Below, one piece after another: positions 2,423 to 24,127 of a DNA stretch of 27,476 bases (within the stretch, counting starts at the first letter, position 1; every line of letters begins with the position of its first letter). Position numbers and translations under genes: made by a program. The stretch is from a virus, in the IMG/VR virus record IMGVR_UViG_3300012964_000438, positions 1-27,476 of that record; one strand, 5' to 3'. A model generated the notes under the pieces. The model was not told the DNA's origin, searched no databases, and worked only from the letters and a program-made list of their open reading frames with translations.

Positions 2423-4645
2423 TCAGCGGACGGGGCCGAAGTAGTTGAAAATCGGATATCGGAGGCCATCCATGCAGTTGTGGACCAGAACACCATTGGC
2501 GAAGAACTCAGGAGGGCCATCAACCGTCAGGTCGTACACGGGAACGGCTCTTCCGCTTTCCGTAACGGACTCCACAGCTACGAGAACAACATGGGGTCTT
2601 TTGGTACCTGTTGATCGTGAACGAACCCCCGCATTCGAGACACGTTCGGGTGACGTCGTCGATTCCTGACGTCCTACGGAACCTAGACCTGCAGACGTTC
2701 GAGCAAAACCTGTCAGACACACGGCGCGTGATGCTGTCGAATGCTTGGTGGCAGACTTCGCACTCTCGGGTGACGGGGACTCGTTCCTTCCAAGACGCTT
2801 TTCCGTGTTCAGAATGCCAGGCTCTGCCCTCTGGGCTTCGGTGCCAAGCCACCGTGAGCGGACGAATCTGATCGGCCCAGGCGCGCGATCTAGCCCGCAA
2901 CTCTGGTGTGACGTGTCCGGCGATGTGGTCTCTGGCCGGCAAGCACTCGAGATTGTTGATCTCGTTGTTGAGGGGGTTCTTGTCCTTGTGGTGGACGTGA
3001 TGCCCTGCCGGGACCTTCCCGTGATGATGCTCCCAGATGGCGACGTGGAGGCGCCGGCCGTGCTGAGATGTGAAGTAGACACGGAGCTCTCTCCGCGGTG
3101 ATGTTGGGTATCTTCGGTACTGGGTTCCGTTGTAGACGATCCGTTCAGTGGTTTCGAGCATGGCGTGAGGCATGCCCAGAGCATATCACCGTATCGCAGA
3201 GCGTCCAATCTTTTCCAGCCGTCTGACGTGGCTACCAGGTGATCCGGCGTACCTTCCAGGACGTGACCAGACGAAGTCTTCAAGATCAGGGTGGCTCTCG
3301 AGTCCGATGTTTTCCCGGACCACGCGAGCGGAGCCAATCCCCTCCTGGTCCAAACCTTGTCCTGCAGCGTGATGCGTTCGATCGGAATCTGTCCTCGTAC
3401 CGTGGAGATCATCGTCCCGGCCGCGAGGCAATGGTTGTCCTTGTCGACGATGTCCTCGGTGTAGATCATGTCCTCGGCGTTGCGCGTCTCTGGGCGCCGC
3501 TTGTAGAGCCCCATCTCGCGGATGATGTTCGGGCACCGCTTGGAGACGTAGAGTCGAGCGTGTTCTTGTCCTTGCCACGAGAATTTCATCAGCCGGTGAG
3601 CAACGGCCGCGATACCGTCCTGGAGAGAGTTGTCGACGACGTTGTCGGCGCGCCTACCGCGCAGCCTGACGCCGGCTTTCTTCTTGTAGGCCTGGAGCAA
3701 AGCGGGTTGCGACGGATCTCCGTAGAACAGAGCCTGTGGGTACCACTTCATCCACGTGCGCCACTTGTCGCACCACCAGTCCTCGGTCTTGTGGTTCTCG
3801 TAGATCTCCTCGAGCACCCACGCCGTCGCGTCTTGACCGTGGCCTTGGATTCCGATCAGGAGACCGACGCCAGGGTCTTCGTAGCCGTGGTCGCAGCCGA
3901 TCAGGACGTCGTTCCACTCGATGTCGGCGGGCGGCTCGCGAACGTGGAAGTCCTCGTCGAACAGGTCGTATACGAGGCCTTCAGAGGCGTCGAAGTCACA
4001 CTCGTATTCCCGCTTGAAGATGCGGGGGTCGGTCGTGCGCTTGACCTCCGCGAGCCACGCTTGGTCGACCCAGTAGGAGTCTGAGCTCGGGACCCGGAAG
4101 GCAACGTGGCCGGGCTCGCCTTTCTTGGCCTTTTCCCAGCCAGCGTAGAGCGTCCCATGCCGCCCTCGGCGGGGAGTCCCGGCTCGGAGCCAGATGGATC
4201 TCTGTCCGCTGCGGGAAAACGTCGGCCGAATGACGGCCGCTTCGATCGCGGGGTCAATGTTGTCCGTCTCGTCCTGGACGATGACGTCGAACCGCTGCCC
4301 TAGGATGCCGTGGGCGTTCTCCGCGCCCCAGGTACTGAGCCGCGACCCGTTGCGGTACTCGACCGAGAGGTTCGTCTTGTTCGGAGGACCCGTGATGTAG
4401 TCGGACAGGTCGTTCGCGAACTGACCGAACAGCCTCGGTACCCAGTGGGTGTTTCGCGCTTGCTTGAGCTCGGGCATGATGAGCCCGATGTGGCGGGGCT
4501 CTTGGAGAGCTAGGTAATGGATCGCGTTGTCGAGGAAAACACTCTTTCCCGAACCGCGTCCCCATGCCAGCGTGATGATCCAACCGGGGACCAGAGCTTT
4601 CAGCGCGGCCCTCTGGTGCCGGTCGAGCCGGACCTCAAGCGTCAC
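2423..4645 (-). CDS. Terminase large subunit interrupted by an intein
   Basis: Packaging motor: ATPase that translocates DNA into the prohead and nuclease that cuts the concatemer. Walker A is GRGSGKS at residues 29-35 and Walker B VIVQDE at 121-126; the RuvC-fold nuclease starts around VLIGCDHGYEDPG (about residue 246). The 740-residue ORF is long because an intein (residues 406-723) splits the third acidic nuclease motif: the spliced product would read DNH-CMDGLRY. Exteins total 422 residues, a normal TerL length. The ATG overlaps the TerS stop by 4 nt. Without splicing the nuclease active site should be broken, so splicing is probably required for packaging. Confidence 0.93.
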   Translation of the reverse strand: MTLEVRLDRHQRAALKALVPGWIITLAWGRGSGKSVFLDNAIHYLALQEPRHIGLIMPELKQARNTHWVPRLFGQFANDLSDYITGPPNKTNLSVEYRNGSRLSTWGAENAHGILGQRFDVIVQDETDNIDPAIEAAVIRPTFSRSGQRSIWLRAGTPRRGRHGTLYAGWEKAKKGEPGHVAFRVPSSDSYWVDQAWLAEVKRTTDPRIFKREYECDFDASEGLVYDLFDEDFHVREPPADIEWNDVLIGCDHGYEDPGVGLLIGIQGHGQDATAWVLEEIYENHKTEDWWCDKWRTWMKWYPQALFYGDPSQPALLQAYKKKAGVRLRGRRADNVVDNSLQDGIAAVAHRLMKFSWQGQEHARLYVSKRCPNIIREMGLYKRRPETRNAEDMIYTEDIVDKDNHCLAAGTMISTVRGQIPIERITLQDKVWTRRGLAPLAWSGKTSDSRATLILKTSSGHVLEGTPDHLVATSDGWKRLDALRYGDMLWACLTPCSKPLNGSSTTEPSTEDTQHHRGESSVSTSHLSTAGASTSPSGSIITGRSRQGITSTTRTRTPSTTRSTISSACRPETTSPDTSHQSCGLDRAPGPIRFVRSRWLGTEAQRAEPGILNTEKRLGRNESPSPESAKSATKHSTASRAVCLTGFARTSAGLGSVGRQESTTSPERVSNAGVRSRSTGTKRPHVVLVAVESVTESGRAVPVYDLTVDGPPEFFANGVLVHNCMDGLRYPIFNYFGPVR
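2477..3430 (-). mobile_element. Intein in the terminase large subunit
   Basis: A 318-codon protein-splicing element. It begins with Cys1 in CLAAGTMISTVRG (block A), has a block B with the TxxH signature (TPDHLVATSDG), and ends with the F/G blocks VPVYDLTVDG and ANGVLVHN, followed by Cys+1 of the C-extein. All residues needed for canonical class 1 splicing (Cys1, block B Thr/His, penultimate His, terminal Asn, Cys+1) are visible. Between the splicing blocks the intein frame is low-complexity and rich in Ser, Thr and Arg, unlike a LAGLIDADG or HNH domain. That same DNA encodes an HNH protein in another frame (2520-3173). Confidence 0.93.
2520..3173 (-). CDS. HNH homing endonuclease nested out of frame inside the TerL intein
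   Basis: A 217-residue HNH nuclease, expected to cut an intein-less terL allele and so drive intein homing. The HNH core is visible at residues 46-90 (AIWEHHHGKVPAGHHVHHKD, NNEINNLECLPA, DHIAGH). Four CxxC or CxxxC pairs follow (CEVC, CSNVC, CLEC, CSRSC), suggesting two zinc fingers. The frame is -1 relative to the intein. A TGA in this frame at about 3186-3188 shows it cannot be an upstream in-frame extension. Start ATG 3173 or 3161; neither has a clear ribosome site, so internal initiation or -1 frameshifting are both possible. It ends 43 bases before the intein end, overlapping the C-terminal splicing block. Confidence 0.85.
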   Translation of the reverse strand: MPHAMLETTERIVYNGTQYRRYPTSPRRELRVYFTSQHGRRLHVAIWEHHHGKVPAGHHVHHKDKNPLNNEINNLECLPARDHIAGHVTPELRARSRAWADQIRPLTVAWHRSPEGRAWHSEHGKASWKERVPVTRECEVCHQAFDSITRRVSDRFCSNVCRSRFRRTSGIDDVTRTCLECGGSFTINRYQKTPCCSRSCGVRYGKRKSRSRVRPDG

Positions 4646-5208: not shown

Positions 5209-5913
5209 TCACCGATGTTCTTCGTAGATCTTGCGCATCACGCGGCCACACTGCTCTCTGACATGTTCGATGCCGAGGGTGTTGCAAAACTCTTCACGTT
5301 CCTTCTGGTCCTCGAATACGACCAGCAGGTAGTATCCTTGGGTATCGCGATCCAGAGACTTCGCCACCAGACCGTCGTACTTCGCGCGAGTCTCTCTGAC
5401 CTTGTCCGCCAGTTCCTCGAGTTGGTCCGCGGTAGCATCGTCTACTGGAGCGTTGTCGAACATCCGATAGATGTCGGCAACGTCGAAGCCTGAAGCCGCT
5501 GGTTCTGCTCCTAGTTGGTACTGTGGGTCTTGAAAGAGCTCGCTCAGCTTGTCGATGTCGAAGGCCCCTTGGGCCTCATAGTTGTTCAGCAGGACGTTGG
5601 CTTGACGTTCCTGCTTGTCGTCGAGCTCGACTTGAGCGACTGTGAGTTCGTAGTCAGATGTACCGTAGAGTTCGTCGAGTTGATGGACTCTCTGGTGTCC
5701 CCCTACGATGTTGCCGGTGCGGACGTTCCAAATGGCGGCCGGGCCCAGCATGCCGTGTGTCTCAATCCCTTCTCGCAACTTTCGGCGTTGCGCGGGACTG
5801 ATGACACGAGGATTGTAGGGGGCGTCCGTGAGTTTGGATCGATGGACCTTGATGGTCTGGAATCGCTCCAGAGATCCCGGAACCCGCGGCTCATCCCGCT
5901 TGCCTCGTGCCAT
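5209..5913 (-). CDS. ParB-like nuclease-domain protein
   Basis: A ParB/sulfiredoxin-fold protein. The core is at residues about 20-105: a conserved APYNPRVISPAQRRKLREGI segment, then GNIVGGHQRVHQL, which corresponds to the ParB box II (G-E/H-x-R) motif. The C-terminal half is helical and charged. Members of this family in phages bind CTP or act as nucleases or modification partners; the role here is not known. ATG 5913 is preferred over ATG 5940 because a GGAG site lies upstream of it. It overlaps the PAPS-reductase-like gene by 23 nt, so the two are probably co-translated, and lies just before TerS. Confidence 0.8.
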   Translation of the reverse strand: MARGKRDEPRVPGSLERFQTIKVHRSKLTDAPYNPRVISPAQRRKLREGIETHGMLGPAAIWNVRTGNIVGGHQRVHQLDELYGTSDYELTVAQVELDDKQERQANVLLNNYEAQGAFDIDKLSELFQDPQYQLGAEPAASGFDVADIYRMFDNAPVDDATADQLEELADKVRETRAKYDGLVAKSLDRDTQGYYLLVVFEDQKEREEFCNTLGIEHVREQCGRVMRKIYEEHR

Positions 5914-6577
5914 AGAACTGCCGTCTCCAGACCGGGGCATCCGCGTAGGGGTAGTGTTCTAGCATCCGAGAGAAGTCTGCGGGGTGGTTGTCGTGAAGCC
6001 AGAGAAGGCTCGGGATGCTGTGGTCGATGCCCGTCGCATTTCCTTCGGAGGCTTTTGGGATCGGGATGGCTCGGCGCTTCAGGTACGCTAGGACATCGAA
6101 CTTGTTCCACCCTCGGATTGGGTAGACGACATCAGTCCATCGGGCTGCCCAAGTGGTGAAGTATCGGCGCCTCCAAAGGCTGTCGGATTCCTTCGCGCCG
6201 GTTGCCAAGAGTCGGCACCCTGACTCAGCCAACGCTGCATCGAAGACGTCGCGTAGCTTCCAGTCCTGCGGGTTGACGGTGTCGTACCGGACAGGTCCGT
6301 AGCTTCCGCTCCGAAGCATCTTGGGGACGATCCAGTGGGGGAATTGATGGATCGTTATGCCCCATCGCTTCCGGGCGTATTCCAACTGTCGTTCAACACA
6401 TTCCAGTCCTGGGACGACCCACATGAAGAAAGCGTCGACCTTGTCCCATGTTCGGCAGCAAAGATCGAGTACCGCCAGGGAATCCTTGCCGCCCGAGTAG
6501 GCGACGAGAATTCGATCGTACTTTTGCCGGGCCCCCCGCAAGACCTCAAGGGTCTGATCCAGAGGTCCTAGGGACAT
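5891..6577 (-). CDS. PAPS reductase-like PP-loop (adenine nucleotide alpha-hydrolase) protein
   Basis: An N-type ATP pyrophosphatase fold related to PAPS reductase and DndC. The PP-loop YSGGKDS is at residues 27-33. A second conserved region ATGAKESDSLWRRR (about residues 125-138) resembles the substrate-binding Arg/Glu-Ser element of the family, and VVYPIRGWNKFDVLAYL follows. These enzymes activate a substrate by adenylation, often in sulfur transfer. With the adjacent ParB-like gene it resembles phage pairs suspected of DNA or RNA modification; the actual reaction is unknown. ATG 6577 overlaps the previous stop (TGATG); a GTG codon precedes it. Confidence 0.85.
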   Translation of the reverse strand: MSLGPLDQTLEVLRGARQKYDRILVAYSGGKDSLAVLDLCCRTWDKVDAFFMWVVPGLECVERQLEYARKRWGITIHQFPHWIVPKMLRSGSYGPVRYDTVNPQDWKLRDVFDAALAESGCRLLATGAKESDSLWRRRYFTTWAARWTDVVYPIRGWNKFDVLAYLKRRAIPIPKASEGNATGIDHSIPSLLWLHDNHPADFSRMLEHYPYADAPVWRRQFYGTRQAG

Positions 6578-6744
6578 CACCCGCCTCCGCTGACTCCGCC
6601 TCCACCGGCGGCTCCGCGGCCTCCACTGGTCCGGTATCCACCAGCACGGCCCGCCCCTACTCGCCCGGCCGAGATCGCGCGCCCACGGGCCGCGCGCTCC
6701 CTCGCGGCCATCGCCCTAGCACGTCCACTTCTCGCAGCTGCCAT
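6577..6744 (-). CDS. Small Arg/Gly/Ala-rich protein of unknown function
   Basis: A 55-residue highly basic protein beginning MAAARSGRAR and ending in a Gly-rich tail (GGRGAAGGGG). It has 11 Arg and one acidic residue. An AGGAG site 9 nt upstream of the ATG and a TGATG overlap with the next gene support translation. It resembles the protein at 7481-7669 (same MAAAR start, GRAI motif and Gly-rich end), so the two are likely paralogues. Nucleic-acid or capsid-interior binding would fit the composition, but no function is shown. Confidence 0.65.
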   Translation of the reverse strand: MAAARSGRARAMAARERAARGRAISAGRVGAGRAGGYRTSGGRGAAGGGGVSGGG

Positions 6745-6822: not shown

Positions 6823-7002
6823 GTGAGGCAGATTGACCACATACTGGTTTCGACCATTCGGTCGGCCATCAAGAGAAATTCCGGTAATCTACACCGGACG
6901 GCGCTCGACCTAGGCCTGGGCCGCGCCACCCTCTACAGGTGGATCCGCAGGCACCCGGAGCTACTCGTGGCCGTACAGTCGGCCAGAAAGGAACACCCGT
7001 GA
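6823..7002 (+). CDS. Small Fis-type helix-turn-helix protein
   Basis: A 59-residue DNA-binding protein. The segment GNLHRTALDLGLGRATLYRW (residues 21-40) matches the Fis/NtrC C-terminal HTH pattern, and the tail is basic. It is the first gene of a rightward two-gene unit facing an otherwise leftward genome. GTG 6823 has no ribosome site but lies at the expected transcription start; the stop overlaps the DUF488 GTG by 4 nt. It may autoregulate through the ACTGTCTC repeats upstream (inference). Confidence 0.7.
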   Translation: MRQIDHILVSTIRSAIKRNSGNLHRTALDLGLGRATLYRWIRRHPELLVAVQSARKEHP

Positions 7003-7484
7003 TTCTTAGCGTCGGATACCAGCGCTACAGCCAGGACTCGCTAGTCCGGCTATTCGACCAACTACACATTGATCGGGTCGTGGACGTCAGAGCGGTCCCC
7101 GTCAGCCGTCATCGGGGAATGGGTCGTCGACAGCTCGAGTCCAGACTCGGATCTAGGTACGAGTGGCACGGAGACTCTCTCGGGGGCCGCGTACATGGAC
7201 GACTTGGCCCCACGGAGTCGGGACTGGACTGGCTCTTGACCGAAGTCGCCGATGAGCCGACCCACACGGCTCTGATGTGCCTCGAGGAAGCCCCCGGTGA
7301 TTGCCACCGGCATCACCTGATCGCGGTCCCATTGATCGACCGTGGCATCGATATACTCCACGTCTACCAGGACCAGATTGTCTCGTCGTACGACCTAGCG
7401 ATCTCCATGACAGACGGGAGTGGCGAGTACCCATATTTTCGGATCGAGGATTGGGACGACATCCTCGCGGAACTAGCGGCCTAG
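6999..7484 (+). CDS. DUF488 family protein
   Basis: A 161-residue DUF488 protein of unknown biochemical role. Family marks: SVGYQRYSQDSLVRLF at the N-terminus, VVDVRAVPVSRHRGMG at about residues 27-42, and LMCLEEAPGDCHRH at about 93-106 with the conserved Cys-x7-Cys-His. GTG 6999 is chosen because AAAGGA lies just upstream and the start overlaps the HTH stop (GTGA); a longer reading to 6939 would overlap most of the HTH gene. It is convergent with the leftward gene at 7481 (4-nt overlap at the stops). The oppositely oriented unit looks like a moron. Confidence 0.82.
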   Translation: MILSVGYQRYSQDSLVRLFDQLHIDRVVDVRAVPVSRHRGMGRRQLESRLGSRYEWHGDSLGGRVHGRLGPTESGLDWLLTEVADEPTHTALMCLEEAPGDCHRHHLIAVPLIDRGIDILHVYQDQIVSSYDLAISMTDGSGEYPYFRIEDWDDILAELAA

Positions 7485-12489: not shown

Positions 12490-12671
12490 GGTTTCCTCTC
12501 TGGGTCTTCCCTTGTCAGCGTGACGGTGGCGCCCATCACCTCCGACATGTCCCGAGAACCGACAAGTTCCACGTCCACCAGCCAAGTGCCTTTGTTGTTG
12601 CGGGGCCTCTTGCGCAGCACATACTCCGCGAGAGCTTCCTGGATCTGGTGCTTCGTCAGGTGGGTCTTCAC
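12486..12671 (-). CDS. Small hypothetical protein, HTH-like N-terminus
   Basis: A 61-residue product: a helical N-terminus (THLTKHQIQEALAEYVLRKR) then a beta-rich half (GTWLVDVELVG, GATVTLTRE). It starts with GTG, and its GGGAGG site is within the coding end of the DHH gene. No function assigned. Confidence 0.58.
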   Translation of the reverse strand: MKTHLTKHQIQEALAEYVLRKRPRNNKGTWLVDVELVGSRDMSEVMGATVTLTREDPERKP

Positions 12672-13552
12672 GGGTACCTCCCGTCGATGGCGTCGGGATC
12701 ATGTGGACTCGGAATAGTGAATCCTGCAGCGTGTGGATGACCCCCTCCACAGTAGTGACGTGCGATAGTGGAAACGTCCAGACCGTCGTCATCGCTTCTT
12801 AGCGAGTATAGGCGCTGGCCGTCGATGTCCCTCCACGTAGCGCTGAATGGCTCCCCATGGCAAAGCGCGTGCCCCACTTCGCTGATGAGCTGAGGGATTG
12901 GCATCGGAACGCTGGGCACGTCGTGCCCGGCAATCATGACTCGACTGCTGTGCTTCACTGCTTCCGCAACGAGGCGAGTTTGGTAGCGCGAAACGACCGC
13001 TCCGTACTTGCACAGCACACCGACACCGTCGTCGCTGAGACCGTCTCCGGCCGCCTTACGAATCGTTTCGATCGTGAGTTCCTCCGACGCGAGCCATGCT
13101 GCGAAGTCTCGCGTCCCGAGTAGGAGGAACCGCCACAGATCTCGGTCCTGGATGTAGCGCAGCGCTAGCGGAATCGTTTCGCCAGGGACCAGCACGTTCC
13201 ACGCCATCACACAGCCCGAGCGATCCATGTCAAAGAAGGCCCCAGCAAAGCCTTCGAGTTCAGTCTGTGCCGATGCGTGATGGTCCAGAATCGTCACGCT
13301 ACGGGCCACCTCCACTACCTGGTCCAACACTGGACGCTTGAAGCTGAAGTCCACCATCAGGACGTCGCGATCCTCGCAGCGCGTCAGATCGGGTGGCTCG
13401 TGATACTTTCCATCGACCAAGTCGCACTCTGGCCATCTCTGCCGGCACACCCACGCTGCCGCCACGCCATCTGGACAGTCCGCGTGGTAGATCACCAGAG
13501 GGTTCACGAGCGCGTTGCATCGGTCGATTGCCGCTTGGTCGTTCCTGGTCAT
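12668..13552 (-). CDS. DHH-family phosphoesterase
   Basis: A 294-residue DHH/DHHA1 protein (RecJ, NrnA and c-di-AMP phosphodiesterase superfamily), a metal-dependent phosphoesterase. Visible motifs: YHADCPDG (residues 22-29), MVDFS (67-71), DHHA at 90-93, and the DHHA1 signature GGGHPHAAGF near residue 277. ATG 13552 is chosen for its GGGAG site and the 4-nt overlap with the DnaB stop; a longer ORF to 13729 lies within the helicase gene. Possible substrates are short oligonucleotides, cyclic dinucleotides or replication intermediates; the sequence alone does not decide. Linkage to DnaB suggests a nucleic-acid role. Confidence 0.87.
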   Translation of the reverse strand: MTRNDQAAIDRCNALVNPLVIYHADCPDGVAAAWVCRQRWPECDLVDGKYHEPPDLTRCEDRDVLMVDFSFKRPVLDQVVEVARSVTILDHHASAQTELEGFAGAFFDMDRSGCVMAWNVLVPGETIPLALRYIQDRDLWRFLLLGTRDFAAWLASEELTIETIRKAAGDGLSDDGVGVLCKYGAVVSRYQTRLVAEAVKHSSRVMIAGHDVPSVPMPIPQLISEVGHALCHGEPFSATWRDIDGQRLYSLRSDDDGLDVSTIARHYCGGGHPHAAGFTIPSPHDPDAIDGRYP

Positions 13553-14988
13553 GGATATCTCCCGTCGATGGGGTCGTTGTCCACGTCCTGGTAGTTCGGT
13601 GGCGGGGCGTCGAGGTCGGACCATTCGCAGTCTTCTGCCAAACCGTCGAACCGTCCCCACTGTCCCGTGAACTTCAGCCGCACGGTCCCGGTCCTGCCGT
13701 TGCGGTGCTTGGACGTGATGACCTCGCAAAGCCCCTTGTCGGGCGAGTCCTCGTTGTAATACTCGTCGCGGTACAGGAAGTTGACCGAGTAGGCGTCCTG
13801 TTCGATCGCGCCCGACTCGCGCAGATCGCTGAGAATGGGTCGCTTGTTTGGGCGTCCCTCGAGTGACCGGTTCAACTGTGACACACCAATGAGAGCGACG
13901 TCGAATTCTCCCGCCATCGTCATGAGCGCCTTGCTGGTGTTCGCTACCGCCGTCTCCTGGGTGTCGCCGTGTTGGCGCGAGTGGTTCACGAGCTGCAGGT
14001 AGTCGACAACGACAAGCGCTAGATCGACCCCTTGCTCGCGCCGCATTCTGGTGGCCTCTCTGCGAATCGTCGATCGGATTGACGCGACAGTGGCCCCGGG
14101 CCGGTACCGAATCGATATCGGAAGTTGAGAGAGTCGCTCGGTCGCCGTCGTGATGAGCCTCCAGTCGTCCGCGTCGGGCTCCCCCGTCATGATGGTCTCG
14201 AGAGCGCGCTTGCTTTCGGCCGCCAGCATCCGCTGCGTGAGCTCAAGCTTCGTCATCTCGAGCGAGAACAGCAGGGAACCGCACTGTGGCCCGCACGTCT
14301 GCCGCATGAGCTCGGACGTAAATAGCGATTTCCCCATCCCAGGACGTCCGGCTACGATGTGCAGCTTCGACCTCATCAGACCAGCTGGGAACGTCCTCTT
14401 GAGCGCAGACCATGGCACCGGCACGTAGTGCGCGTCGTGGTACGCCTCCCCACCCTCGCACCGGCCCTGCATGTCCTGGTTGACACGAGGCAGGATCTGC
14501 CCCAGAGTCTCGGTCGCGCTCTCGGAAGTCGACCTGTCGGCCGAGGCATCGAAGAGACGTTGCTCGGACCGCTGCGCCCAGGCCTCCACGTCGTCGACCT
14601 GCCCCACGCCCTCTCCGGCGATGACCCGTGCGGCGTCCACGATGCGCCTCAGGCGCGCTTTGGCGGCGACCGCCCGGCAGTGGCTCGCGACGTCCGCGAC
14701 GTAAGGGCACCCCCCTGTAAGTTCAGCAATGGCCGCTGTGCCGCCGATTGCCGAAAGCTGCCCGCGTCCCTGGAGGTCGGTTGCGACCGAGACGGGGTCG
14801 ACGGCCTCTCCAGAGTCGTCAATCCTGAAGGCGGACTCCAGGATGCGGCGAGTCAGCATCCCGTAGCAATCCCCGGGCTGCAGGATGTCGCGCACGATGT
14901 CCAGCACGGACGGATTCGTCAGCACGGCCGACGCCACCGCGTGCTCGGATTCTAGGGCTGTCCCGGGGATCGCTTCGTTCTCAACCAT
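13549..14988 (-). CDS. dnaB: Replicative DNA helicase, DnaB family
   Basis: A 479-residue hexameric 5'-3' helicase for the replication fork. The N-terminal domain is residues about 10-120 (EHAVASAVLTNPSVLD, SAIGGTAAIAELTGG). The RecA-like motor has Walker A GRPGMGKS at 214-221, Walker B VVVDYLQL at 326-333, and the C-terminal motifs SQLNRSLEGRPNKRPILSDL and SGAIEQDA. Length matches the family. Its ATG overlaps the initiator-like gene by 8 nt. The C-terminus ends IDGRYP, as does the DHH protein after it. No intein is present here. Confidence 0.95.
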   Translation of the reverse strand: MVENEAIPGTALESEHAVASAVLTNPSVLDIVRDILQPGDCYGMLTRRILESAFRIDDSGEAVDPVSVATDLQGRGQLSAIGGTAAIAELTGGCPYVADVASHCRAVAAKARLRRIVDAARVIAGEGVGQVDDVEAWAQRSEQRLFDASADRSTSESATETLGQILPRVNQDMQGRCEGGEAYHDAHYVPVPWSALKRTFPAGLMRSKLHIVAGRPGMGKSLFTSELMRQTCGPQCGSLLFSLEMTKLELTQRMLAAESKRALETIMTGEPDADDWRLITTATERLSQLPISIRYRPGATVASIRSTIRREATRMRREQGVDLALVVVDYLQLVNHSRQHGDTQETAVANTSKALMTMAGEFDVALIGVSQLNRSLEGRPNKRPILSDLRESGAIEQDAYSVNFLYRDEYYNEDSPDKGLCEVITSKHRNGRTGTVRLKFTGQWGRFDGLAEDCEWSDLDAPPPNYQDVDNDPIDGRYP

Positions 14989-18292: not shown

Positions 18293-18558
18293 GACTTCCT
18301 CCGCATCTCTCTCCGGATCACCCGGAGTTTTGCGATCGCGACCTTGGTCGTGAGGCAATCCCCAAATAGGAAGAGGCACTCAGCGAGCTCAGCGAGATAG
18401 AATCGCTGCGTTTGCGTGGGTTCGCCGTACCGAGCCGCATGGGCTGCCTCGGCCCATCTTTCATCATTCAGGTCTGGGAACTGCCAGCGTGTCGGACCTT
18501 CACCGAAGATCAGACGTCCATTGGATCTGTGGCTGAGATCATCTTCACGTAGTGTCAT
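18289..18558 (-). CDS. Hypothetical protein
   Basis: An 89-residue product with an acidic N-terminus and a helical, basic end (FYLAELAECLFLFGDCLTTK, AIAKLRVIRREMRRK). It lies between methyltransferase and resolvase, coupled by 4-nt overlaps to both. No family recognised. Confidence 0.65.
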   Translation of the reverse strand: MTLREDDLSHRSNGRLIFGEGPTRWQFPDLNDERWAEAAHAARYGEPTQTQRFYLAELAECLFLFGDCLTTKVAIAKLRVIRREMRRKS

Positions 18559-20066
18559 CCGAACAGGCTCCTCTGCTTGGGTTCAGTCGCCACGTCCGTC
18601 ACGACCGGAGGCTTCCACGACGCGGCGTGGTGGATGCGGGCCCTCGCGATCGTGACGTACGGCGCGTAGTCGTCGGATTCCACGTCGGTGTTGTCGTTCA
18701 TCTCGATCCCGATGAAGCGGAAGTCCTCGAGACTGCACGCCACGCCAGTGGTGCCGCTGCCACAGAATGGGTCGAGGCAGACACCACGCGGAGGCGTCGA
18801 GAGTCTCACCAGCCACTGAATGAACGGAACGCGCTTGACCGTCGGGTGCACGTTGCGGGCGCCACCGCTGCGCCCTGCTCCAGACCGTGGGCAGTCCAGA
18901 GCGTCAGCCCCTTCCTTGCGCTTCGTGACCTTTCCGCGGCTCACCTTCGGCAGGTGCTCGCATCCAAGTTCCTTCTCGCTGCGGGATGGCTTAGCCTGGT
19001 ACAAGAAGGGCGTGACGTCGTCGAGCGGGTGGGGGCGGAACTGGTTGAAGAAGCGGGCTGAAGTTCCGGAATCACGGTACCCGCCGGTCACGTTTGCTTT
19101 CTCTCGACCTTTCGAAAGGTTGTCCCTCTCGCGGTTGTTTCGGGGTCTGTCAGTCGACACCGAGTGCCCGCTCTGCGCATCGATCTCTCCGCACGGGCAC
19201 CACTCAACGCACCGGTCTCCGCACTCAGCGTCGTGGCTGAGCACGATGTTCGCCGGCCACCTTCCCGCAGGGTGGCACTGGATTCCGATCCCAGGCGGGG
19301 CCGCTATCTTGTCGGCCTCTGGCTTGGCGCTGTGACCGCTTGCGTGCCAGGACGGTGGACGCTCGGTCCAGTCTGTGGACACTCGGCAGGAGTCCACATT
19401 GAGACATCCGCAGCCGTGGGCCAGGACGTTATCGACCAGCGTACCCTTGAACGGTTTGCGAGCGAGCCACCAGAATTCAGCACTCGGCTTCAGTCCCGTT
19501 CCGAACCCGTCCCACTGTTTCGCCTCTTTGCACCCTCCGGACGTGACCGTGAGTTCGATCGGCTCCGAATTCTCACAGCCCACCGAGTACGTCCCGCCCC
19601 TGTCTTTCGTCGACGTTCCGGCGTTGCCTCCGGCGGTGTACGTGTGCAGGACCACGCGCTGGTCCGTGGTGCCATTCTTACGGTCAATACCCTTGGAAAC
19701 ATTGAGACTTTTTGGCATCCCGCTGCCGAACAGGTGTGTGATGACGTCCCTGATCTCGAACCCAGCACGCTCGAGCGCCGTCCCGGTCCAGTGCGAGGTC
19801 CTGGGCAGGGACCACACCAAGGCATGCCCACCTGGTTTGAGCACGCGCAGCGTCTCTCGCATGACCTCGGTCAACCACGCGATCCACTGCTCTGAGCCCC
19901 CCTTGTCCTTGTCCCAATCGGCCCCCATGAAGGCAATCCCTGCCGGCGGATCCGTCACGACCGAGTCCACCGAGCAGTCCGGCATCTCCCGCAGAGCAGT
20001 CAGCGCCTCCGAGTGCACCACGCACCACCGCTCCCTGCCCTCGAGGACGTCGGAGATCGGCGTCAC
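18555..20066 (-). CDS. DNA N4/N6 methyltransferase (PF01555-like)
   Basis: A 503-residue DNA-modifying enzyme, likely protecting phage DNA from restriction. The catalytic motif IV is DPPAG at residues 39-43 (DPPAGIAFMGADWD), the SAM-binding motif I is DPFCGSGTTG at 432-441, giving the beta-class order (IV before I). Unlike the usual DPPY, position 4 is Ala, as in many phage members. A Cys-rich block (HGCGCLNVDSCRV, ECGDRCVEWCPCGEID) in the middle may bind zinc or form the target-recognition region. Sequence specificity cannot be told. Coupled by ATGA on both sides. Confidence 0.9.
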   Translation of the reverse strand: MTPISDVLEGRERWCVVHSEALTALREMPDCSVDSVVTDPPAGIAFMGADWDKDKGGSEQWIAWLTEVMRETLRVLKPGGHALVWSLPRTSHWTGTALERAGFEIRDVITHLFGSGMPKSLNVSKGIDRKNGTTDQRVVLHTYTAGGNAGTSTKDRGGTYSVGCENSEPIELTVTSGGCKEAKQWDGFGTGLKPSAEFWWLARKPFKGTLVDNVLAHGCGCLNVDSCRVSTDWTERPPSWHASGHSAKPEADKIAAPPGIGIQCHPAGRWPANIVLSHDAECGDRCVEWCPCGEIDAQSGHSVSTDRPRNNRERDNLSKGREKANVTGGYRDSGTSARFFNQFRPHPLDDVTPFLYQAKPSRSEKELGCEHLPKVSRGKVTKRKEGADALDCPRSGAGRSGGARNVHPTVKRVPFIQWLVRLSTPPRGVCLDPFCGSGTTGVACSLEDFRFIGIEMNDNTDVESDDYAPYVTIARARIHHAASWKPPVVTDVATEPKQRSLFG

Positions 20067-22553: not shown

Positions 22554-22767
22554 GCTCTGCCTCCGCTTTCCGCAGTTCGTCCTCGGCAACGTGCCACAGG
22601 CAGTTGACCTCGGCGTCCTTGAGCTTCCCCCGGTGCGGTGCGAGTAGGTGAATGAATCGCACTCCCTGGCCGTTCCAGTGGATTTCTATGAACCTCCGGC
22701 TCCGGTGCGTGACGCGGCAACCCACTGAGCGGTGGCCGTCGGTCAGGATGATGTAGTGGTCAGGCAT
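22546..22767 (-). CDS. Hypothetical protein
   Basis: A 73-residue protein starting MPDHYIILTDGHRSVGCRVT; beta-rich, with IEIHWNGQGVRFIHLLAPHR and a charged helix at the end. ATG 22767 has GGAGGA upstream and overlaps the ASCH gene by 25 nt. A longer ORF to 23118 is not supported. Confidence 0.62.
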   Translation of the reverse strand: MPDHYIILTDGHRSVGCRVTHRSRRFIEIHWNGQGVRFIHLLAPHRGKLKDAEVNCLWHVAEDELRKAEAERA

Positions 22768-23669
22768 TGATCCTCCGGTCCCGGTAGCAGCCGGGCCTGG
22801 TTGGTTGTGATGGTCCTCCGGAACGTGATGACGGTGACGAGCGGGTTGCTCGACCACGGGGCGTTCTTCCCGTGAATCTCGTCCCACTTGTTGGCGAACG
22901 CCATCCACGGCGACTGGTCGTCGTACCATGGGCGGAAGTGCCGAACGTACTCCTCGGAGATCCCCTCGGCGTAGACGTCGGCCTTGGGCATAGCGTGCAA
23001 ATGCTCCGCTCGCACGCCGATGACGTCGAGCCACCTGTGCCCCATTAGCGGCAGGTCTGGCGTCGACATACCTGTTCGCCTTCTGCCATTCAAAATCCTC
23101 GAAACCTGGGGTTGGCATATTCTGAAATGCTCAGCGAGTTCCCGTTGTTTAGCGCCTGAAGCTCTCATCCTGAAAAGCTCCGTGACCCGCTCATCGCTGA
23201 GCACACAAGCGGCGTTGTCTTCCCCATTCAAATGACGCATGCGGCCGCGGCGGGTTTGGTCGCTGCGATTGTCAGCACTGTTACCTAGGTACAGGTGCTC
23301 AGGATTGACGCACCACCCAACGTCGCATGTATGCAACACCTGTTTGCCGCCCGGATCGCCACGATGAATCATGTATGAGTACCTATGTGCCGAAATCTTT
23401 CCGGTGCTCACAGAGAGCTTCCCGTGTCTGGCGTGTCCTGTGCCGGTCCCCATCCATTCCCAACACGATCCGGGTTTTATGACTCGCGACCAGAATCGTT
23501 CTTCATCTGTTTTCGGTAGCGGTTTCGGGGATTGCATTCCCATGAACACCCGATCCCCAACAGCCCACTTGACCGGACGCTTGCCGATGAGCCGCCGGGT
23601 CATTGTCTTGCGACCCGCGAGAATGGCCTGCACGGATTCGCCGGTGAAGATCAGGGGCCTGTCGGTCAT
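22743..23669 (-). CDS. ASCH-domain protein interrupted by an HNH endonuclease domain
   Basis: A 308-residue hybrid. The ends match a phage ASCH protein: residues 7-46 (IFTGESVQAILAGRKTMTRR, VGDRVF) and about 200-286 (LMGHRWLDVIGVRAEHL, ADVYAEGI, WDEIHGKNAPWSSNPLV). Between them, residues 57-198 are a complete HNH homing-type nuclease: RFWSRVIKPGSCWEW, then SAHRYSYMIHRG, VLHTCDVGWCVNPEHLYLGN, and a C-terminal HTH (RELAEHFRICQPQVSRILNG). ATG 23669 has GGAGG upstream and an ATGA overlap; an earlier start at 23762 is inside the preceding gene. No intein splice residues or room for a self-splicing intron exist, so this is likely a fused or domain-inserted protein. Confidence 0.82.
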   Translation of the reverse strand: MTDRPLIFTGESVQAILAGRKTMTRRLIGKRPVKWAVGDRVFMGMQSPKPLPKTDEERFWSRVIKPGSCWEWMGTGTGHARHGKLSVSTGKISAHRYSYMIHRGDPGGKQVLHTCDVGWCVNPEHLYLGNSADNRSDQTRRGRMRHLNGEDNAACVLSDERVTELFRMRASGAKQRELAEHFRICQPQVSRILNGRRRTGMSTPDLPLMGHRWLDVIGVRAEHLHAMPKADVYAEGISEEYVRHFRPWYDDQSPWMAFANKWDEIHGKNAPWSSNPLVTVITFRRTITTNQARLLPGPEDQCLTTTSS

Positions 23670-24127
23670 CGTTCTCCCTCCACGAACATGATGGCCGCCT
23701 CGCGGGCCACGTCGGCGTTTGTAGCCTCGGTCATGTACTGGACCCCGGACTTGAGCAGGCACAGGGCCAAAGCTTCGGGGTCGATGTCGCTCGGAAGTTC
23801 AGCGAGCCAGGCATCGAGCAGCGGGTAGACTCGGTCGATCTCGCGCTGAAGCGTGGTCGGCAGGCGGGGCGTGATGACCGTCCAACTCCACCCGTAGCCC
23901 CAGTCAGTGCAGTACCGGAGCCAGCGGATCAGTGTGGCATCGAGCTGCTTTTCCGTCGCGGTCGAGGGGTTGGCTCCGATGAGCAGCGCCCGGCGCTCGT
24001 TGGGGAGCCCGGTGGGCCAGCGGAGCAGGTAGCGGTACCGGCCGCATGCCGAGAACTCGGCGCTCGGGGTGTCAAAGAACCGGTCCACCTCCTCGGCGTC
24101 GAAGAACTGGAACTGACGGCGGGTCAC
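23666..24127 (-). CDS. DUF1643-like protein with atypical C-terminus
   Basis: A 153-residue product from GTG 24127. The first 80 residues follow DUF1643: SACGRYRYLLRWPTG, ALLIGANPSTATEKQLDATL, LRYCTDWGYGWSW. The C-terminal half (TTLQREIDRVYPLLDAWLAE onward) does not look like the family and may be a replacement. A longer ORF would start at TTG 24211, inside the preceding gene, and is disfavoured. DUF1643 function is unknown. Confidence 0.65.
   Translation of the reverse strand: MTRRQFQFFDAEEVDRFFDTPSAEFSACGRYRYLLRWPTGLPNERRALLIGANPSTATEKQLDATLIRWLRYCTDWGYGWSWTVITPRLPTTLQREIDRVYPLLDAWLAELPSDIDPEALALCLLKSGVQYMTEATNADVAREAAIMFVEGER

Follow-up and report, generated by a model that had tools for sequence, protein, structure and literature searches.

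In viral record IMGVR_UViG_3300012964_000438 (27,476 nucleotides (nt), positions 1 to 27,476; this full stretch is referred to here as the window), the large terminase gene terL is interrupted by an intein, and the DNA of that intein also encodes an HNH endonuclease in another reading frame (Table 1). The host gene is not broken into two open reading frames (ORFs) in the window, since terL forms one ORF at 2423-4645. The intein frame within it is uninterrupted from Cys1 (3428-3430) to the final His-Asn (2477-2482, with Asn318 at 2477-2479), a run of 318 codons followed by Cys+1, and it matched the Pfam families Intein_splicing (expectation value (E) 2.9e-11) and Hint_2 (E 1.5e-7). The insertion point is the TerL nuclease motif, which intein-less homologues read straight through: uninvaded L362, 45% identical, has DKDNH/GMDALRY (DKDNHGMDALRY) and uninvaded L363 has DKNNH/ACDAIRY. 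AlphaFold2 returned a predicted local distance difference test score (pLDDT) of ~95 for intein residues 1-91 and 276-318 and of ~33 for residues 92-275, which fall entirely inside the HNH-coding stretch, and a Foldseek search matched the folded parts to the mini-inteins 6frg and 3ifj (best E 4e-6). The splice residues C1, T61, H64 and N318 were invariant and, together with the predicted Hint fold and a conserved host motif interrupted in frame, identify a class 1 Hint intein.

Table 1 Features of the intein-containing terL locus of the window. Residue numbers are those of the intein or of the HNH protein.
Feature	Position	Strand	Evidence
terL, large terminase, GTG start, intein-interrupted	2423..4645	-	Pfam Terminase_6N 1.1e-5, Intein_splicing 2.3e-10
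TerL N-extein, end ...IVDKDNH	3431..4645	-	alignment with L008, L088; uninvaded L362 reads ...IIDKDNHGMDALRY
TerL C-extein, C(+1)MDGLRYPIFNYFGPVR	2423..2476	-	ORF reading; uninvaded homologues
Intein, 318 residues, Cys1 to His317-Asn318	2477..3430	-	Pfam, splice residues, fold prediction
N-terminal splicing half, residues 1-91	3158..3430	-	AlphaFold2 pLDDT ~95
Unstructured intein-frame filler, residues 92-275; HNH coding in other frame	2606..3157	-	pLDDT ~33
C-terminal splicing half, residues 276-318	2477..2605	-	pLDDT ~95; first part 2520-2605 overlaps HNH gene
Putative HNH endonuclease gene, 217 aa + TGA = 218 codons, own ATG, -1 frame of intein	2520..3173	-	HNH_3 E 6e-15; pLDDT 94.5; 86 loci
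HNH_3 motif, HNH residues 41-83	2925..3053	-	Pfam
First Cys4 cluster, HNH C138, C141, C157, C161	2691..2762	-	conserved columns
Second Cys4 cluster, HNH C178, C181, C196, C200	2574..2642	-	conserved columns
TGA in HNH frame just upstream of ATG, from intein Gly-Asp codons (GGT GAT)	3186..3188	-	sequence
GGTGAT, weak Shine-Dalgarno-like, 11 nt before ATG, spacing long	3185..3190	-	same string similarly placed in L008, L024
HNH gene TGA stop, from Val-Asp codons (GTT GAT) of intein block F	2520..2522	-	sequence

The HNH gene starts at an offset of 2 (mod 3) from Cys1, which places it in the -1 frame of the intein. Its product belongs to the HNH_3 family by profile match and by its conserved HNH and zinc residues; across 51 homologues seven of the eight cysteines of the two clusters were invariant and C161 was at least 90% conserved. 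AlphaFold2 modelled this protein with a mean pLDDT of 94.5, and G+C by codon position in the HNH frame was 0.57, 0.52 and 0.67, a third-position peak as in terL. For the window taken alone, an intein frame open over the HNH gene was unremarkable (probability 0.15 in synonymous shuffles), and with the intein frame kept fixed the HNH frame came out open in 0 of 5000 shuffles. A preliminary description of this DNA had reported an open 318-codon intein frame with full splice blocks, a 218-codon HNH gene in the -1 frame with two zinc-finger-like pairs, and an HNH 3' end that runs into the coding of the C-terminal splicing block; each of these was borne out (Table 1).

The arrangement recurs widely. 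Queried with the HNH protein by tblastn, phage records gave matches in terL of Tetrasphaera phage TJE1, Acinetobacter phage Highwayman and Rhodobacteraceae phage LS06, and in these complete genomes the HNH is likewise out of frame, in -1, inside an intein, with terL alone annotated. We built a set of nested loci from viral contigs and from bacterial and archaeal genomes, both picked on the HNH alone. Among viral contigs a single-protein query matched one locus and an alignment query reached far wider, the best 80 of its 515 relatives being taken into the counts. Loci were counted as nested when intein halves flanked the HNH in one continuous host ORF, which yielded at least 86, the window and the named phages included, in phages and prophages. 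All 86 had the HNH in -1, and neither the intein frame nor the third phase was used in any of them, which sets them apart from canonical fused-nuclease inteins; homologues with the nuclease in the intein frame, sought as a sign that the preliminary description was mistaken, were not found among them. When both blocks were present in the -1 phase, the frame was uninterrupted at 86 of 88 loci (interrupted in L092 and L115). Cys1 and the terminal Asn were present in 85 of the 85 other nested loci, and residue +1, Cys in the window, was Cys in 76 and Ser in 9. Among 52 hosts scanned, Intein_splicing was found in 50, Terminase_6N in 31 and Terminase_3 in 29. Host contigs were assigned to Myxococcota, Bacteroidota, Pseudomonadota, Patescibacteria, Acidobacteriota, Thermoplasmatota and Nitrososphaerota, and an isolate genome, that of Piscinibacter sakaiensis (L140), was among the nested loci.

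To avoid selection on the HNH, viral contigs were also searched with the C-terminal and then the N-terminal intein halves. These searches gave 114 paired inteins, of which 94 carried the HNH in -1, five a different ORF in -2 (see below), nine were nuclease-less mini-inteins of 124-147 residues (L207, L218, L237, L247, L254 and L269 among them), one, L219, had a classic HNH in -2 (see below), and one, L276, had an in-frame LAGLIDADG domain and served as a control for the canonical layout. Short inteins of 133-183 residues with an HNH-frame match (L173, L178, L187, L234, L243) were also seen and may be deletion derivatives. Freestanding relatives of the HNH exist, and those in BP10 and PAE1 adjoin terminase genes. 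At other loci terL is broken, with split intein halves around an HNH relative (L052, L064, L075, L076, L078, L096, L100, L104); these are likely split inteins that would splice in trans. L065 likewise has a two-ORF terL with intein halves and a member of the HNH family between. A quick tree of 114 HNH proteins intermixed nested, freestanding and split forms, its supported branches requiring the nested label to change at least six times, indicating that the nuclease has moved between arrangements. The window HNH fell in a group with L008, a viral contig, and L088, a contig from Byssovorax (Myxococcota) (Shimodaira-Hasegawa-like approximate likelihood ratio test, SH-aLRT, 98), a hint as to its host.

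We compared constraint on the two frames across 83 unique nested loci, with expectations from synonymous shuffling. Over the HNH region the intein frame held 0 stops against 181.0 expected, a zero far beyond chance that the single-ORF criterion nevertheless makes partly definitional, although just two loci with both blocks in -1 (L092, L115) were interrupted, and the third frame held 1465 against 1544 expected; freestanding relatives showed no stop depletion (53 versus 57 expected). Differences at HNH codon positions 1, 2 and 3 in 15 informative pairs numbered 792, 596 and 1351, a pattern that indicates purifying selection on the HNH protein; for the window HNH itself the comparison was solely with relatives ~54% identical. 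Because of this third-position excess, it was the second codon position of the intein frame that took most of the changes, as filler sequence would. The two alternative phases would bring ~2 and ~19 expected stops per locus, so that the permissive phase is the one that is used, and HNH stop codons gather at two block-F junctions across the family. The contrast drawn earlier between a filler-like intein frame and a conserved HNH frame was thus upheld, and purifying selection on the intein frame only, which would have spoken against it, was not seen. The same data bear on whether the HNH ORF is a decaying remnant in an element that is now just a splicing mini-intein. Related mini-inteins without a nuclease do occur (the six named above), as the preliminary description had suggested looking for; with the HNH and Cys clusters conserved in 51 sequences and a third-position excess in the HNH frame, however, we consider decay quite unlikely.

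A second version of the layout emerged from the five paired inteins with an ORF in -2. This ORF matches DUF559 and MTES_1575, which are restriction-endonuclease-like and which we take to be the Vsr-like group, and four of the five inteins sit at the DEAD-box motif of phage helicases (...IIVDE/C...HN/CH...). A search with the nucleases of those four, with named phages added, gave 84 loci (L282-L361, L278, L279, L280 and L281), carried among others by Vibrio phage CP-T1 (L278), Vibrio phages 1.194.O and K391, and Pseudomonas phage MR14 (L281). Both intein halves lay in a continuous ORF at 69 unique loci, all with the nuclease in -2. Intein-frame stops at these 69 loci were 0 against 540.7 expected, third-frame stops 959 against 914, and third positions of the nested frame varied most. 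The helicase version is independent of the HNH_3/terL version and its nuclease is unrelated, a breadth of nuclease, frame and host gene that the preliminary description had missed. A general mechanistic requirement for -1 was rejected, given that the helicase family uses -2. Two individual loci were also noted. At L200:3303-4046 an MTES_1575/DUF559 ORF occupies -2 of an intein, and the host gene resembles a terminase (weak match to Terminase_6C) rather than a helicase. At L219:722-1654 a terminase intein holds a classic HNH (PF01844) in -2, apparently adding a third type of nuclease to the nested layout.

The preliminary description had proposed that the HNH is either a separate protein or a frameshift product of the intein N-half, and it was the first of these that the start regions favored. 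A Shine-Dalgarno match of at least 5 nt preceded 36 of 81 HNH starts compared with 223 of 2938 control ATGs (Fisher p 1.6e-18), a stop in the HNH frame often lay 3-30 nt ahead of the start, and X XXY YYZ slippery heptamers near the junction were present at 4 of 86 loci; none was found in the window before the frame change. Because Shine-Dalgarno matches are enriched and slippery sites rare, the HNH gene appears to be separately translated. The helicase family has a similar signature (Shine-Dalgarno of at least 5 nt at 9 of 30 nested starts versus 58 of 733, p 6e-4). A fusion in which ribosomes slip by -1 out of the intein N-half and continue in the HNH frame would agree with the phase, -1 being the usual direction of bacterial programmed frameshifting, and with L003, where the HNH frame is open far upstream. 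The scarce heptamers, the frequent in-frame stop and the Shine-Dalgarno enrichment at that place argue against it, as does a helicase family that lies in -2 yet shows the same start signature, and we regard such a fusion as very improbable. Strings of the form GGTGATAT(AAT) were seen just before the HNH start in the window (3174-3190, minus strand) and in L019, L032, L033 and L051; they resemble an extended -10 element, double as Gly-Asp-Ile codons and could be an internal promoter. Strings like GGTGATATAAT, with the look of an embedded promoter, were noted by eye alone.

Two indels in assembly or sequencing could displace an ordinary in-frame intein nuclease and so mimic the nested layout at one locus, and L099 and L112 do resemble single frame breaks. 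Such an error would have had to recur in one phase at 86 loci, among them the complete TJE1, Highwayman and LS06 genomes and the P. sakaiensis isolate, and again in another phase at 69 unique loci of another nuclease; recurrence therefore rules this artefact out, and we give it practically no credence. HNH genes are common in phage introns, but a group I or II intron with an HNH ORF and an accidentally open frame is scarcely credible in the face of the full intein motif set, the predicted Hint fold, zero stops across the family and an Rfam scan of the window that returned no match.

The best reading of the locus is a dual-coding mobile intein, in which a cis-splicing TerL intein and a separately translated HNH homing nuclease would share DNA in overlapping frames; we put its probability at about 0.87. 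Under this model the terL mRNA would be read in two frames. The long frame would yield a TerL precursor from which two folded intein halves and ~184 unstructured residues excise, restoring the TerL nuclease motif, and a ribosome initiating within the intein N-half would produce the 217-residue nuclease from the -1 frame. At terL alleles that lack the intein, the nuclease would cut the conserved DNH/xDALRY sequence, and repair would then copy both intein and nuclease into them. Where it overlaps the nuclease, the intein frame would stay free of stops because terL needs that frame, and would otherwise be little constrained. This combination of cis-splicing with a separate homing nuclease is strongly supported by the comparative evidence. 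Several points nonetheless weigh against it. We infer actual splicing, HNH translation and cutting of the empty site from sequence, and target specificity from location only, namely the insertion position and the freestanding relatives beside terminase genes. A Foldseek search of the PDB with the HNH model gave no confident whole-chain match, so that the Pfam match and the conserved motif are the basis for calling it a nuclease; the absence of intein-frame stops is partly a matter of definition; and the Shine-Dalgarno string at the window ATG, GGTGAT, is weak and badly spaced, so that the case for separate initiation in this phage is drawn from its relatives. More broadly, we think it likely that the dual-coding intein belongs to a general class with at least two origins, comprising HNH_3 in -1 (TerL), the DUF559/Vsr-like nuclease in -2 (helicase DEAD-box) and the classic HNH in -2 (L219), in which splicing and homing would be functions of separate overlapping-frame proteins and the phase is fixed by family as the less stop-prone alternative.

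The nearest published precedent is the ShiLan insertion, in which a methylase insert that lacks splicing domains bears an out-of-frame HNH (PMC11855218), and a further case of this type has been announced in PMC12613952. The two layouts are alike in that an HNH with zinc fingers, thought to be homing and separately translated, is hidden in another frame of a host ORF that is left open. They differ in that no splicing domain can be detected in the ShiLan insert, which is believed to remain in the host protein, whereas the window has a complete intein around its nuclease, with the Intein_splicing match given above. Canonical large inteins, with LAGLIDADG or HNH in frame, also have Hint halves interrupted by a nuclease and a conserved host motif as target, but the nuclease of the window lies outside the intein frame and would not belong to the spliced-out intein protein. 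Fractured genes, reportedly described by Dassa et al. in 2009 as having split inteins with a freestanding nuclease between them, share a nuclease that forms a separate gene between intein halves, and L052, L064 and others fit that description; the host ORF of the window, in contrast, is continuous, which would mean cis-splicing and a double reading of the DNA. Mycobacteriophage inteins likewise have a phage TerL as host but, according to the part of PMC5050341 that we used, sit in the ATPase domain, whereas the site in the window is the C-terminal nuclease motif; that part makes no mention of an out-of-frame HNH. The nested layout thus falls outside both canonical fused-nuclease inteins and ShiLan insertions and is best placed as a new intein variant. 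We found no account in the literature of an out-of-frame nuclease in a splicing-competent intein, the preprint of Gosselin, Arsenault and Gogarten (10.1101/2025.01.02.630785) not having been compared. That preprint, 'Actinobacteriophage Inteins: ... Non-Canonical Architecture', is cited by the ShiLan paper; its title suggests unusual phage intein layouts and it may describe the same arrangement, which leaves priority unsettled.

On this dual-coding reading the concept of an intein would shift, since splicing and mobility need not reside in one fused protein and the nuclease could be made at its own level, independent of splicing. The loci also supply over 200 natural examples of extended overprinting on one strand, in which one frame is constrained and the other merely kept open, a clean test bed for the origin of overlapping genes. 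TJE1, Highwayman and CP-T1 are annotated here with the host gene alone, and their nucleases are therefore missing from annotation. The unstructured middles suggest long-linker, near-split inteins of possible use in protein engineering.

Elsewhere in the window, a second HNH_3 ORF (22743-23762, minus strand; E 1.6e-5) with a zf-His_Me_endon match lies outside any intein. Other genes on the contig encode a 3'-phosphoadenosine-5'-phosphosulfate (PAPS)-reductase-like protein (5891-6580, minus strand), a DUF488 protein (6939-7484, plus strand), a DHHA1-domain protein (12668-13729, minus strand) and an N6/N4 methylase (18555-20066, minus strand).
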